From an uncultured Actinomycetes bacterium (GTDB lineage Bacteria > Actinomycetota > Acidimicrobiia > Acidimicrobiales > RAAP-2): DNA of 23,148 bases. The notes under the pieces are model-generated. The model was not told the DNA's origin and ran no database searches. It worked only from the letters and a program-made list of their open reading frames with translations. Position numbers and translations under genes: made by a program. Below, one piece after another: positions 8,935 through 12,964 of this stretch. Within the stretch, counting starts at the first letter, position 1. Each line of letters opens with the position of its first letter. The DNA is taken from assembly GCA_903830745.1 (NCBI GenBank), contig CAIKVF010000109.1, forward strand, positions 1 to 23,148, given 5' to 3'.

Positions 8935-9264
8935 CTAGCGAAGAAACGCGCGAACGTCTACTTTTCTGTTGCAGGCTTTGGATCCCTCGTGGGCAAGTTG
9001 CAAGGCAATTTCGTGACTCGGCACATCAACAATCCAGAATCCACTGATGTATTCATCTGACTGAACTAGCGGGCCATTGCTGCTTTGAGATTTGCCACCT
9101 CGATTGTCGACAACTGTTGACGCATGTGATGGTTCTATGCCCGCAGCCATAATCCAGTAACCATTTGCCTCTAACTGATCGTTGAATGCATCAATCGCAA
9201 CTCCAACTTCACTCGGATCAACTGTCCCTGGTCGGGTATCAATTACGCAGAGCATGTAACGCAT
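8935..9264 (-). CDS. YCII-domain protein (YciI-like)
   Basis: A 109-residue protein of the YCII/dimeric alpha-beta barrel family. It shows MRYMLCVID at the N-terminus, the central GYWIMAAGIEPSHASTVVD strand-helix unit and 'DEYISGFWIVDVPSHEIALQLAHE', the typical second half with the DG/SGFWI-type strand. The biochemical role of most members is unknown; some are fused to sigma factors or act on small electrophiles. ATG 9264 is preferred over TTG 9270 because an AGAAAG-type binding site lies at suitable distance. It follows murD2 by 12 nt on the same strand and so is the last gene of the zur-pgeF-murL-murD2 unit, and it converges on tRNA-Thr with 10 nt between the encoded CCA and its stop. No peptidoglycan role is known for the family. 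Confidence 0.8.
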   Translation of the reverse strand: MRYMLCVIDTRPGTVDPSEVGVAIDAFNDQLEANGYWIMAAGIEPSHASTVVDNRGGKSQSSNGPLVQSDEYISGFWIVDVPSHEIALQLAHEGSKACNRKVDVRAFLR

Positions 9265-9276
9265 TTTCAAGACTTT

Positions 9277-10554
9277 CTAGTTAGTAACTGCACGAGAGAA
9301 ATCGCTCGATCGTTCTTCCCAGTTTAGATAACGATCAAAACTTGGTGCTCCGGGCGAAAGAAGTACTACACCGCTTGTACCAAGGAACTCTGTTCCAGAG
9401 ATAAGTGCTTCGTCCATTAATTCAAAACTTGTATGAGCGATTTCTGAATTTATCTTCAGAGTCTCTTCAACAATGCGCTTACCGGCCGGCCCCATTGAAA
9501 GAAGCATCGTTGGTCGAGTTCGTGTGGCGATGGCTTGGGCGAGGGGAACATAGTCAACCCCGCGGTCAAACCCACCAATGAGAAGTGCCAAAGAATCATC
9601 TTTGAAGACGTCAAGTGCTGCAACAGCTGGAAGAACTGAAGTTGCGAGTCCGTCATCGACGAACTTGATTCCATTCTTAGTCGCCACGAGAGTGAGGCGG
9701 CCACTGAGCGGGACAAAGGAGCTTGCGTTAGTGCTCACAGCTGCGTGTACTTCGCTACGTGGTGTGTTGGTTACGGACGAAACAACTTCGAGCGCGAGTG
9801 CAACATTGCTGTGACTGTGCTCCCCAAGCAGATGCAGCTCTTCGGTGAGCGTAGATGTTTCTGAATCAACGAAAACAACTGCTCCCCCAATTTGTGATGA
9901 CTCAGAGTGCACGACTTCGCTGTTTGGAACAAATGTTGTGTGCTCGCCGCTAGCTCTAGTCAGCTGTAGTTTGTCGCTTCGGTACTGCTCGAGTGATCCG
10001 TGCCAGTCAATGTGGTCAGAGCCAAGTGATGTGAGCACTACGGTCTTTGGCGCAACATCAAGATCAGTTGCTTGGAAGCTTGAGATTTCAACAACAAGCC
10101 ATCCAGTTGAAGTATCAACTGATGTGTCGTATGGGGGGAGTCCAATGTTTCCGAGTCGTTGTGCTTTTTCTCCCAGGCACTGTAAGAAGAATGTGATCAA
10201 TGCGGTGGTTGTGGACTTTCCTTTTGTTCCGGTGATCCCAATGACTCGTGAACGGTCTGCTTGGTTCATCCAGAGATTTAAAGTAGAGGTGACGTACACA
10301 TTGTTCTTCTCGAGTTGCACAACACTCGCACTGCGACGTGGGACACCGGGGCTCTTTAGAACAACGTCACACGTCATAAGTTCTTCCAGACCGCCACTAC
10401 TAGTTACAAGAACGCCAGCCTTAGGGTCATCGTCCACAATCACGAGTTCACAGATTCCACTGAGTAGTTGTTCGCTGGCGCGTCCCTCTAGGCCGTATCC
10501 GTAAATTCCTACGCGCTTTTGGGCGAGGTCAGAAAAGCCAGTGGGCCGGAACAT
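9277..10554 (-). CDS. murD2: UDP-N-acetylmuramoyl-L-alanine--L-glutamate ligase
   Basis: A 425-residue Mur ligase. The N-terminal Rossmann domain is RVGIYGYGLEGRAS. The ATP-binding P-loop is GTKGKST (109-115), with EISSFQ (157-162) for Mg2+ and YRSDK with the carbamylatable Lys (K195). It departs from canonical MurD in the way MurD2 does: LGSDHIDWHGS replaces SPDHLDRH, PLSGRL replaces LPHRxE, and DDGLATS (300-306) replaces NDSKATN. MurD2 adds L-Glu, not D-Glu, to UDP-MurNAc-L-Ala (shown in Xanthomonas); the adjacent murL supplies the epimerase. The open frame extends 28 codons upstream, but AAGGA at 10566-10562, 7 nt before ATG 10554, fixes the start. It overlaps the murL end by 26 nt. L-Glu specificity is inferred from context and motif changes. 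Confidence 0.87.
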   Translation of the reverse strand: MFRPTGFSDLAQKRVGIYGYGLEGRASEQLLSGICELVIVDDDPKAGVLVTSSGGLEELMTCDVVLKSPGVPRRSASVVQLEKNNVYVTSTLNLWMNQADRSRVIGITGTKGKSTTTALITFFLQCLGEKAQRLGNIGLPPYDTSVDTSTGWLVVEISSFQATDLDVAPKTVVLTSLGSDHIDWHGSLEQYRSDKLQLTRASGEHTTFVPNSEVVHSESSQIGGAVVFVDSETSTLTEELHLLGEHSHSNVALALEVVSSVTNTPRSEVHAAVSTNASSFVPLSGRLTLVATKNGIKFVDDGLATSVLPAVAALDVFKDDSLALLIGGFDRGVDYVPLAQAIATRTRPTMLLSMGPAGKRIVEETLKINSEIAHTSFELMDEALISGTEFLGTSGVVLLSPGAPSFDRYLNWEERSSDFSRAVTN

Positions 10555-11827
10555 TGCTAGGTCCTTGGGATTCGAGCAGTTCATCAAAACTGCGGTCTGG
10601 GTTAACGAGGAGTGCGAGCTCTGCGAGGTGGGCGACATCGCTCCAGTCGCGGAGTTGGCTGACCTTTACGAGTGCAACAGCACTTTCGTCGGGGTCTCCA
10701 ACGCATTCGAATGGTTTGTGATCAAGTCCAATGCCAACGAGGGCGCGCAGTTGCTCCACGCGGTTGCTATCACTGAGTGGTTCACTGCCAAAGACTTGTC
10801 GCAGCGTTGCGCGTGGAAGGAATGGAGCCAGGATCAAGTTAATGAAGAGACACTTGTCACATTCGCCACACCAGTTCTTTGCTCGTTGTGATGCATCTTG
10901 AGAAAAGGCACGGTTGCAACTTCTAAATGTTGAGAGAAACTTGTGCTGATCTGCAAATTGTTGCGCAACCCAGACTTCACTGCGGTCACGCAAGAAACTC
11001 GCTACGACAAACTCATCACCAAGAAGTTCCTTCACTGCCTTAGAAATGAGTTGCTCTGCCACCCAGGACTTACTCCACTGGTGATTGATGTCTTGGTCGT
11101 TCCACTTCAGGTTTGGTGCAGATGAAGAGTGCTCGTTGCTCATCACCACACCACCACGACCAGATGCCACAGCGGCAATAACGCTAAGAAGTGTGATCAT
11201 TGCCGTTACTGGAACGTGACCATTGAAATAGCTTTCGTCACCTTTAAGAATCTTTGAGTCAATAATTCTTGTCGCACGCGTAATTGGCAGACCTGTAACT
11301 TTTGCAGTTTCTTCGAGCGGTGCAAACTTTCCACTTGCGGGGCTAACAACAAAGAGTGACTTGTCGAGTTGAGAACTCAACTGGGTAACGCTCACTACTG
11401 AATCAATACCGCCACCAAACGGAATAAGGACAAGGTCGGGGTTCGTAAATGGCGCGAAGTTCTCTGCAGCAACGCCACCAGTAATAACTACGTCATTTAG
11501 GGGGAGTTCGTTCTTGAATGAGAATTCACCCAGTCCGTCATGGAGCGCAGCAGTAAGAAGTTCTCGGCCCATTGGTCCAACTGGAGTTGAGCCGAGGTCA
11601 ATTGTCTTTGCGGCTCCGGCTTTGTAATAGGAGAGTCCAGCTAAAAGAAACCAGAGGTTCGCAACGCCAACAACTGCGGGCTTCGTGAGGTCGTCAACGT
11701 TTTCGAAAGAAACAGTCTCTTCAAAAGGAACTCCATCGAGTTCGAAGTGCCCCGTAAGTGAGGTCGAAGAAATCTCGAGTCGTACGTAGCGAAAAGCTTC
11801 GGCGCGTTTCTTCATGACACCACTCAT
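10529..11827 (-). CDS. murL: UDP-N-acetyl-alpha-D-muramoyl-L-alanyl-L-glutamate epimerase
   Basis: A 432-residue cytosolic protein matching MurL, which inverts the terminal L-Glu of UDP-MurNAc-L-Ala-L-Glu to D-Glu using ATP and Mg2+ (established in Xanthomonas oryzae). The PP-loop-like ATP site is FGGGIDSVVS (GGGIDS 138-143), followed by VVSPASGKFAP and MSNEHSSS (NEHS 231-234). A cysteine cluster CGECDKC (320-326), just before LFINLILAPF, closes the conserved core. No canonical racemase (MurI) motifs occur. It starts 1 nt after the pgeF stop (ATG 11827; ATG 11815 with GAGTGGTG upstream is also possible) and overlaps murD2 by 26 nt. The open frame reaches back to 11908 inside pgeF, but that part is antisense-like and not conserved. 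The pairing with murD2 makes the call strong. Confidence 0.88.
   Translation of the reverse strand: MSGVMKKRAEAFRYVRLEISSTSLTGHFELDGVPFEETVSFENVDDLTKPAVVGVANLWFLLAGLSYYKAGAAKTIDLGSTPVGPMGRELLTAALHDGLGEFSFKNELPLNDVVITGGVAAENFAPFTNPDLVLIPFGGGIDSVVSVTQLSSQLDKSLFVVSPASGKFAPLEETAKVTGLPITRATRIIDSKILKGDESYFNGHVPVTAMITLLSVIAAVASGRGGVVMSNEHSSSAPNLKWNDQDINHQWSKSWVAEQLISKAVKELLGDEFVVASFLRDRSEVWVAQQFADQHKFLSTFRSCNRAFSQDASQRAKNWCGECDKCLFINLILAPFLPRATLRQVFGSEPLSDSNRVEQLRALVGIGLDHKPFECVGDPDESAVALVKVSQLRDWSDVAHLAELALLVNPDRSFDELLESQGPSNVPAHWLF
10562..10566 (-). promoter_or_regulatory. ribosome binding site inside murL that fixes the murD2 start
   Basis: AAGGA on the minus strand, 7 nt before ATG 10554. It lies within the last codons of murL, favours MFRPTGF as the N-terminus of MurD2 and rejects the longer open frame up to 10638. 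Confidence 0.6.
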
Positions 11828-11828
11828 G

Positions 11829-12587
11829 CTACGACGCTCGCTTTGCAATGAGGGCAAAGCGCCCACAGGGGCGAAGAGCACGGTCGCTAAAGAAGATTTC
11901 TCCACCATCAGTACTTTGGCGACTTATTTCAATGTTTTCGTCACTGATTCCAGCTTCGATTAACTGATGATTCGCAACGAGTCGAAGATCAAGTCGTGAG
12001 CGGTCTCCACCATCGCTCGCCGTGGCACCAGGAATGTGTGCAAAGACGTCTGCAACTTCTGGGCCAACTTGGTACCCCTCAAAAGAAATAGATGGACCAA
12101 CAAATGCGTGCACCGACGATGCTGCGTCGAAGTGCATCAGTGCACTCGCAATGACACCACTGGCGAGACCTTTCCATCCTGCGTGTACTGCAGCGAATCT
12201 GTTGGAAGAACTGTCAAAGAGAAGAATTGGCACACAGTCAGCGACCAGTATGCAGAGCACTACATTGCTCTCTGCAGTGACGAGTCCGTCTGCTTCAGTT
12301 TCGGTGATTGCCTGTGCTGCATCAACGACGTCACTGCTGTGCACTTGTCTCACGATGATGAGCTTCTCTGCACCAATGGCGCTAGCGACTCGTTTTCTAT
12401 TTTCTGCAACATCATCTGGATTGTCGCCAACATGGATGCCAAGGTTGAGCGATTCGTATGGTCCTTCGCTCACGCCACCGAAGCGGTCAGTTATGAATGC
12501 GTCAATACCAAATTTCTTGGCAGAGTGAATTGGATACACGCTGAGTGGTCCTCGAACCTCGGGAGTAAGAGTTATTGCTACTGACAC
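11829..12587 (-). CDS. pgeF: peptidoglycan editing factor PgeF (YfiH/laccase-domain)
   Basis: A 252-residue member of the DUF152/YfiH family. The metal and catalytic triad is visible: His in RQVHSSD (H83), Cys in VADCVPI (C118) and His in VHAGWKG (H135). The tail FFSDRAL...GRFALIA is the family C-terminus. In E. coli PgeF removes wrongly added L-Ser at stem position 1 of muropeptide precursors; older 'polyphenol oxidase' or 'laccase' labels are less likely to be the cell role. The start is GTG 12587, overlapping the zur end by 10 nt. The murL start follows its stop after 1 nt. Its place directly before murL and murD2 fits a quality-control role in making the first two residues of the stem peptide. 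Confidence 0.9.
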   Translation of the reverse strand: MSVAITLTPEVRGPLSVYPIHSAKKFGIDAFITDRFGGVSEGPYESLNLGIHVGDNPDDVAENRKRVASAIGAEKLIIVRQVHSSDVVDAAQAITETEADGLVTAESNVVLCILVADCVPILLFDSSSNRFAAVHAGWKGLASGVIASALMHFDAASSVHAFVGPSISFEGYQVGPEVADVFAHIPGATASDGGDRSRLDLRLVANHQLIEAGISDENIEISRQSTDGGEIFFSDRALRPCGRFALIAKRAS

Positions 12588-12964
12588 TTTTGACAGATTC
12601 CATTTAGTTCAATGATGTGGCGAAGATCCTTGAATCCGTTTTTGTTAGCAATTTCACTGGCCCACTTCTCAAGTTGTGGCGCATCAACTTCTACCGTGGC
12701 GCCACAGTTGCGACATGCGAGGTGGTGGTGGTGAACATCTACAACGCAACGTCGGTACAAGCTCTCACCACGGTCAGTCATAACAATGTCGACATCTTTT
12801 GAATCAACGAGTTTGCGCAGCTGGGTGTAGACCGTGGCGAGTGAGATCTGACCGCCGTCTTTGATGATGAGTTCGTGCAGGTCTTGGGCGCTAACGAATC
12901 CTTGGACTCGTCCAAGTACACCGATAACTTCGCGGCGTTGCGCGGTATTTCTGGTGCTGGCCAT
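12578..12964 (-). CDS. zur: zinc uptake regulator (Fur family)
   Basis: A 128-residue Fur-family repressor. The N-terminal winged helix contains the recognition helix SLATVYTQLRKL. The C-terminal half has SLYRRC...HHHHLACRNCG and ends GICQKCQ: the structural Cys4 zinc site is C84, C87, C124, C127, and the sensory site includes the His run 78-81 and C73. The segment HHHHL-C-x2-C-TVEVDAP-LEKWA is much closer to actinobacterial Zur than to Fur. It heads the unit zur-pgeF-murL-murD2-YCII. A TACCAT hexamer (12976-12971) ends 6 nt before the ATG, which suggests a leaderless transcript, and the inverted repeat at 12997-13033 reaches the expected -35 position. Autorepression by zinc is therefore likely (inference). 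Confidence 0.86.
   Translation of the reverse strand: MASTRNTAQRREVIGVLGRVQGFVSAQDLHELIIKDGGQISLATVYTQLRKLVDSKDVDIVMTDRGESLYRRCVVDVHHHHLACRNCGATVEVDAPQLEKWASEIANKNGFKDLRHIIELNGICQKCQ

Follow-up and report, generated by a model that had tools for sequence, protein, structure and literature searches.

The window analysed here is a stretch of 23,148 nt, contig CAIKVF010000109.1 of assembly GCA_903830745.1, from an uncultured Actinomycetes bacterium that GTDB places in Acidimicrobiia; Acidimicrobiales; RAAP-2. Four genes are packed on its minus strand between positions 9277 and 12964: a gene for a Fur-family regulator (12578..12964, PF01475), which is the first of the cluster, then pgeF (11829..12587, GTG start, 252 aa; TIGR00726 and PF02578), murL (10529..11827, 432 aa) and murD2 (9277..10554). 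The Fur gene and pgeF overlap by 10 nt, pgeF and murL are 1 nt apart, and murL and murD2 share 26 nt (10529..10554). Longer upstream starts exist in the list of open reading frames (11908 for murL, 10638 for murD2); we chose the starts by agreement with relatives, which gives the murL and murD2 coordinates of the initial annotation of this DNA, including its 26-nt overlap and its 1-nt spacing behind pgeF. The overlap recurs in same-genus loci (L007, L009, L012, L014 and L016-L019, start codons again chosen by homology). Among 80 loci of named genomes, the best 80 of at least 585, MurD lies no more than 600 bases from MurL in 75 and pgeF lies directly upstream of MurL in 37, so that the arrangement is conserved rather than due to chance. 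We consider it very probable that the cluster encodes a route to position 2 of the peptidoglycan stem that begins with L-glutamate (L-Glu).

The 432-residue protein had initially been taken for a MurL homologue, and this identification stands. It matches the NCBIfam MurL model NF041275 over its length (268 bits, E 1.2e-79; residues 34-454 of the longer 459-aa open frame against positions 5-436 of 447). The score is below the cut-off of 700, which none of 172 genomes of the same family passes; as the model is named for Xanthomonadales, this excludes only the subfamily label. Each of the 120 homologues listed, out of 4235, has the precomputed Pfam domains PF26298 and PF26299, which are known for the window protein by way of these homologues, its own search against the Pfam library having given no match. 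An alignment of 67 MurLs from several phyla (AF2 alignment A2; the window MurL plus 66 of the 77 usable ones from named genomes) has as invariant or nearly invariant features the glycines, Asp and Ser of GGGxDS, together with GH-P, NHQ-SK, SCN, C--C-KC and P--CVG. Both motifs noticed initially, GGGIDS and CGECDKC, are present. The former (residues 138-143, 11399..11416, minus strand) is a PP-loop (pyrophosphate-binding) motif in which G138, G140, D142 and S143 are invariant. The latter (10850..10870, minus strand) supplies Cys320, Cys323 and Cys326, which together with Cys304 form a predicted four-cysteine metal site; Cys304 lies in RSCNRAF (10904..10924, minus strand), where S303, C304, N305 and F308 are invariant. 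The pattern C(x)13-25CxxCxxC occurs in 67 of 67 MurLs.

The ligase downstream of MurL scores above the cut-off of the murD model TIGR01087 (257 versus 212 bits) and groups with MurL-linked MurDs. According to a 2021 minireview (PMC8788868), Glu197 and Arg358 of Xanthomonas oryzae MurD2, which correspond to Asp182 and Lys348 of Escherichia coli MurD, decide between L-Glu and D-glutamate (D-Glu), and an E. coli Lys319Thr variant, at a position found by random mutagenesis, accepts L-Glu. We compared these positions in 148 MurDs, 117 of them MurL-linked and 31 canonical (30 of the class and that of E. coli). MurDs below 300 aa were dropped or missing, so that 74 of the 80 loci from named genomes and 40 of the 42 from the family remained, and the 117 are not independent, since L009/L089 and L016/L082 are identical and the window was entered twice (WIN, L015). 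All 31 canonical MurDs have both Lys319 and Lys348. In the 117 MurL-linked MurDs, the Lys319 position holds Leu in 108, Ile in 8 and Phe in one, and the Lys348 position holds Arg in 113 and Val in one, with three gaps. The window MurD2 follows this pattern with Leu303 (9646..9648, minus strand) at the Lys319 place and the MurD2-type Arg331 (9562..9564, minus strand) at the Lys348 place. Among the residues compared, a hydrophobic residue at the Lys319 position is, in these alignments, the most constant mark of MurL-linked MurDs. The initial annotation had instead pointed to DWHGS, DDGLATS and PLSGRL as replacements of canonical MurD residues. All three motifs are indeed present, but neither DWH nor the lost His serves as a mark of MurD2: canonical MurDs of the class can have DWH too (L174; NWH in L051), and of 74 MurL-linked MurDs from named genomes, 39 retain the LPHR His.

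That the MurL-MurD2 pair replaces MurI and the usual MurD, as first proposed, is supported by genome content and synteny as well as by sequence. Of the 172 family genomes, 158, from all 21 genera sampled, have a MurL match and none has MurI above cut-off; a MurI-like match in one genome (G141; E 4e-7, 29 bits) is far below the cut-off and was rejected. When 148 genomes were drawn evenly from the class, MurL was present in 14 (12 of the window's family, plus G009 and G068) and MurI above cut-off in 86, and no genome had both (Fisher test 2e-6, kinship ignored; because 12 of the 14 MurL genomes are close relatives, effectively three lineages stand behind this value). D-amino-acid transaminase was considered as a source of D-Glu and rejected: all 12 genomes tested gave matches, none above cut-off, which we take to be branched-chain transaminases.

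A search for a canonical murD in the dcw (division and cell wall) cluster gave a similar picture. The window murD2 is the only murD above cut-off in its genome; four weaker matches (28-83 bits) fall on other contigs, with murE and murF present on two of these. The gene order in MurI-bearing relatives (G002, G014) is mraY-murD-ftsW-murG-murC. In four genomes of the family (G285, G173, G130, G161) and in G009 it is mraY-ftsW-murG-murC, with murD gone, and in G068, whose contig begins there, mraY and ftsW are likewise adjacent and murD is gone, making six of six MurL genomes inspected. Of 26 family genomes searched, 22 have a murD above cut-off, and in all 22 it adjoins murL; in G261, murL likewise has a murD next to it, truncated where the contig ends. 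Extra murD matches of about 107-128 bits cover part of the model and coincide with murC in G173, G130 and G161. Two genomes, G268 (partial MurL) and G296 (no MurL), have partial murD matches only, and G287 (no MurL) has none at 1e-30, a pattern that suggests assembly gaps. Given the loss of MurI and of the dcw murD, the MurL-MurD2 pair should be the only source of D-Glu.

Natural fusions are strong evidence that MurL and MurD2 work in sequence. In G009, which belongs to another family of the class, both are joined in one 861-aa open frame inside a contig (L207:7453-10035, minus strand). Among 120 listed homologues of this fusion (327 found), 92 have both domains, with MurL first in 91; only proteins 0.55-1.75 times as long as the query were searched, which biases this count towards fusions. 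The fusion proteins (P0241-P0301) are mostly about 850-1070 aa long, and their source names include Acidimicrobiia, Microbacteriaceae, Bacteroidales and Patescibacteria. In all 91 of their MurD parts that were aligned, the Lys319 position is occupied by Ile or Leu; at the Lys348 position, 87 have Arg, two Lys, one Ser and one Thr. The 11 fusions placed on the MurL tree imply two changes or more.

To our knowledge, MurL has been described in the literature as a protein without known conserved domains, and our sequence searches of PADLOC, Pfam and the PDB gave no convincing hit; the top PDB profile matches were the PP-loop proteins TtuA (E 0.05) and TilS (E 0.6), with unrelated proteins in between. 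Its structural model, however, predicts a PP-loop enzyme of QueC/QatC type with a four-cysteine site. QatC is alignable along nearly the whole MurL model, and the likeness to QueC and QatC comprises the predicted fold, the GGxDS loop (SGGxDS in the PP-loop signature) and the C(x)nCxxCxxC site. Substrate and reaction differ from those of QueC and QatC, and no MurL among the 67 matches the QueC family PF06508 by sequence at E<=1. The reactions of MurD2 and MurL, including the conversion of ATP to AMP, are reportedly known from papers on homologues, whose authors are said to have proposed that MurL adenylates a carboxylate. The predicted fold and four-cysteine site fit this chemistry.

Together, our data suggest a model in which MurC would make UDP-MurNAc-L-Ala (UDP-MurNAc, UDP-N-acetylmuramic acid), PgeF would hydrolyse precursors with a wrong first residue, MurD2 would add L-Glu, MurL would invert the added residue to D-Glu at the expense of ATP, releasing AMP, and MurE would continue as usual. 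MurL would most likely adenylate the alpha-carboxyl of the terminal L-Glu within its QueC/QatC-type fold; adenylation would acidify the alpha proton, and reprotonation from the other face followed by hydrolysis would yield the D-epimer. These details of proton transfer are putative, as is metal binding by the four cysteines.

The window PgeF scores above the TIGR00726 cut-off (145 versus 141 bits) and, aligned to the 1u05/YfiH structures, keeps the equivalents of catalytic His71, Asp89, Cys107 and His124 and of specificity Gln69, the roles being those assigned in PMC8844914. Judged by these residues and its place in the PgeF tree, it is an amidase that edits the UDP-MurNAc-monopeptide and belongs to a murL-linked lineage. 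Since YfiH acts on the monopeptide, PgeF and MurD2 would share the UDP-MurNAc-L-Ala/L-Ser pool, with editing at residue 1. The earlier suggestion that proofreading of residues 1 and 2 is joined to synthesis therefore fits residue 1, but hardly residue 2.

Several observations weigh against an L-Glu-first route at this locus. The window MurD2 retains the canonical Asp (Asp180, 10015..10017, minus strand) at the Asp182 position, where Xanthomonas MurD2 has Glu, and changing this Glu to Asp altered the stereospecificity of the X. oryzae enzyme (PMC8788868). The window ligase thus has the Arg but lacks the Glu of the published switch pair, so that by sequence its preference for L-Glu is no more than probable. 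The Glu does not define the whole MurD2 group, however, since all 40 family MurDs aligned have Asp there, as do 46 of the 74 MurL-linked MurDs of named genomes (27 Glu, one Cys). The single branch that separates 77 MurL-linked from 31 canonical MurDs (SH-like approximate likelihood-ratio test, SH-aLRT, 94) comes from a quick method and a tree with long branches (L008, L013, L141). Neither MurI nor PF01177 was matched in the window's genome, but this is a 1.28-Mb assembly that is 89% complete, and its dcw contig ends inside mraY, so that the loss of the dcw murD is read from same-genus relatives. No MurL was seen in 14 of the 172 family genomes, three of them near-complete, and neither MurL nor MurI above cut-off in 48 of the 148 class genomes, including the small f14 group, so that absence of MurI alone proves little. 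By sequence, finally, the MurL-QueC link is weak: against an alignment of 16 close QueCs, hhalign gave a probability of 2.9 and a score of 24.6, the best of 100 shuffles reaching 26.3. The retained Asp, the score above the murD cut-off and the fact that the clade is known from sequence alone would all suit a conventional MurD supplied with D-Glu by an unrecognised racemase or from external sources, next to a MurL homologue with another substrate. We regard this as very improbable in view of the MurL-MurD linkage and fusions, the changes of Lys319 to Leu and Lys348 to Arg, the loss of the dcw murD and the searches for MurI, PF01177 and D-amino-acid transaminase, none of which gave a hit above cut-off. 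Less remote, but still unlikely, is a relaxed route in which MurD2 takes both L- and D-Glu and MurL is a clean-up epimerase that rescues the L-Glu dipeptide. Asp182 retained alongside the MurD2-type Arg would be consistent with it, as would the Streptococcus mutans MurD, which has Arg at the Lys348 position and slightly accepts L-Glu (PMC8788868). That enzyme lacks Leu at the Lys319 position (K330 of the paper), unlike the window ligase, and as our searches revealed no D-Glu source, the L-Glu branch would carry all flux even then. On balance, we infer L-Glu specificity for the window ligase.

The position of pgeF calls for a similar judgement, as it could be the native dcw pgeF, moved beside murL with no further meaning. 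Consistent with this, a single pgeF match was found in 37 of 40 genomes and none in the other three. In 24 family genomes tested, the single pgeF adjoins murL in 19 and lies elsewhere in five (G203, G161, G156, G206, G181); of these five, the G161 copy is next to ftsZ, and those of G203, G156 and G181 are within about 9 kb of mraY or a MurC-like gene. However, the PgeF tree disfavours such a move: 35 murL-linked and 17 non-linked PgeFs fall on opposite sides of a 100/99 branch (the latter carry the label dcw, which means not beside murL, a position by ftsZ having been seen in G161, G014 and G009 only), and the five non-linked family PgeFs group with those of other families. The MurLs are divided as well. 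All 25 sampled pgeF-linked MurLs belong to a single clade of 33 rows (100/100), together with eight that lack an adjacent pgeF; Kineosporia babensis is in this clade. The MurLs of three other family genera (G203, G156, G182) form a distinct lineage with G068 (98/95). A moved dcw copy is thus rather unlikely; the murL-linked pgeF is apparently a separate lineage, and two versions of the route seem to coexist in the family. The pgeF-murL-murD2 group has the appearance of a cassette passed between lineages; we infer the movement rather than read it off the trees, because these are midpoint-rooted, comprise a chosen sample and, in the case of the MurD tree, group both family versions together (86). 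More speculatively, the three genes might form a self-sufficient transferable cassette, with MurL a cell-wall branch of the QueC/QatC fold that shares ancestry with anti-phage QatC, an idea that we find doubtful.

The gene overlaps suggest a single fur-pgeF-murL-murD2 transcript. A scan for promoters and terminators gave no more matches than shuffled sequence and therefore speaks neither for nor against co-transcription. A Fur-family gene also lies upstream of pgeF in nine further family loci (L007, L009-L011, L014, L016-L019). As Fur is a metal regulator and MurL has a predicted metal site, metal-dependent control of the cluster is conceivable. The next gene after murD2 on the minus strand encodes a YCII-domain protein (8935-9270), and beyond it lies a tRNA-Thr. 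Elsewhere, a contig assigned to Candidatus Saccharibacteria (L141) has the ligase gene upstream of murL (order murD-murL) and Phe at the Lys319 position of the ligase, and three Mycobacterium/Mycolicibacterium loci (L135, L152, L157) have a murL-murD2-like pair on long branches. Genomes of f14/g29 (about 1 Mb), e.g., G005 and G011, have neither MurL nor MurI above cut-off, and in these two no murD was found at E 1e-60; the peptidoglycan pathway of this group is possibly altered or absent.

The L-Glu-first route is already known; we add to it a new member whose cassette is unusual and whose lineage is new and broad. The window's family lies beyond the genera with this route that the minireview lists (PMC8788868). 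With MurL in every genus sampled, the route is the apparent standard of one uncultured actinobacterial family. The hydrophobic residue at the MurD Lys319 position offers a simple sequence mark for it that agrees with the published mutation, the fusions point to bifunctional MurL-MurD2 proteins, and MurL gains a testable fold and mechanism. In the canonical route, D-Glu is made by MurI before ligation by a dcw MurD with Lys319 and Lys348, of which MurD2 is a homologue. The closest parallel is the X. oryzae pair MurD2/MurL (XOO_1320/XOO_1319), a homologous L-Glu ligase and epimerase, likewise in the absence of MurI. The window MurD2 shares with it Arg at the Lys348, Pro at the Ala414 and Phe at the Leu416 position, although this Phe is also found in most canonical MurDs of the class. 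It differs in having Asp rather than Glu at the Asp182 position, in the order pgeF-murL-murD2 within a Fur-headed cluster, and in a MurL score below the Xanthomonadales cut-off. From YfiH, whose catalytic and Ser-specificity residues (Gln69, His71, Cys107, His124) have equivalents in it, the window PgeF is set apart by its place beside murL and by a lineage separate from the sampled non-linked PgeFs of the class. Micromonosporaceae have the same two enzymes in an actinobacterium, and those of one Micromonospora and of Salinispora tropica have reportedly been assayed in vitro. Micromonospora and Actinoplanes-like MurLs share about 35-40% identity with the window MurL over the best segment. In the 11 Micromonosporaceae loci with both genes as neighbours, murD2 is transcribed divergently from murL and pgeF is not upstream, and in two Dactylosporangium loci no MurD lies beside MurL, whereas in the window all three genes follow one another on one strand.

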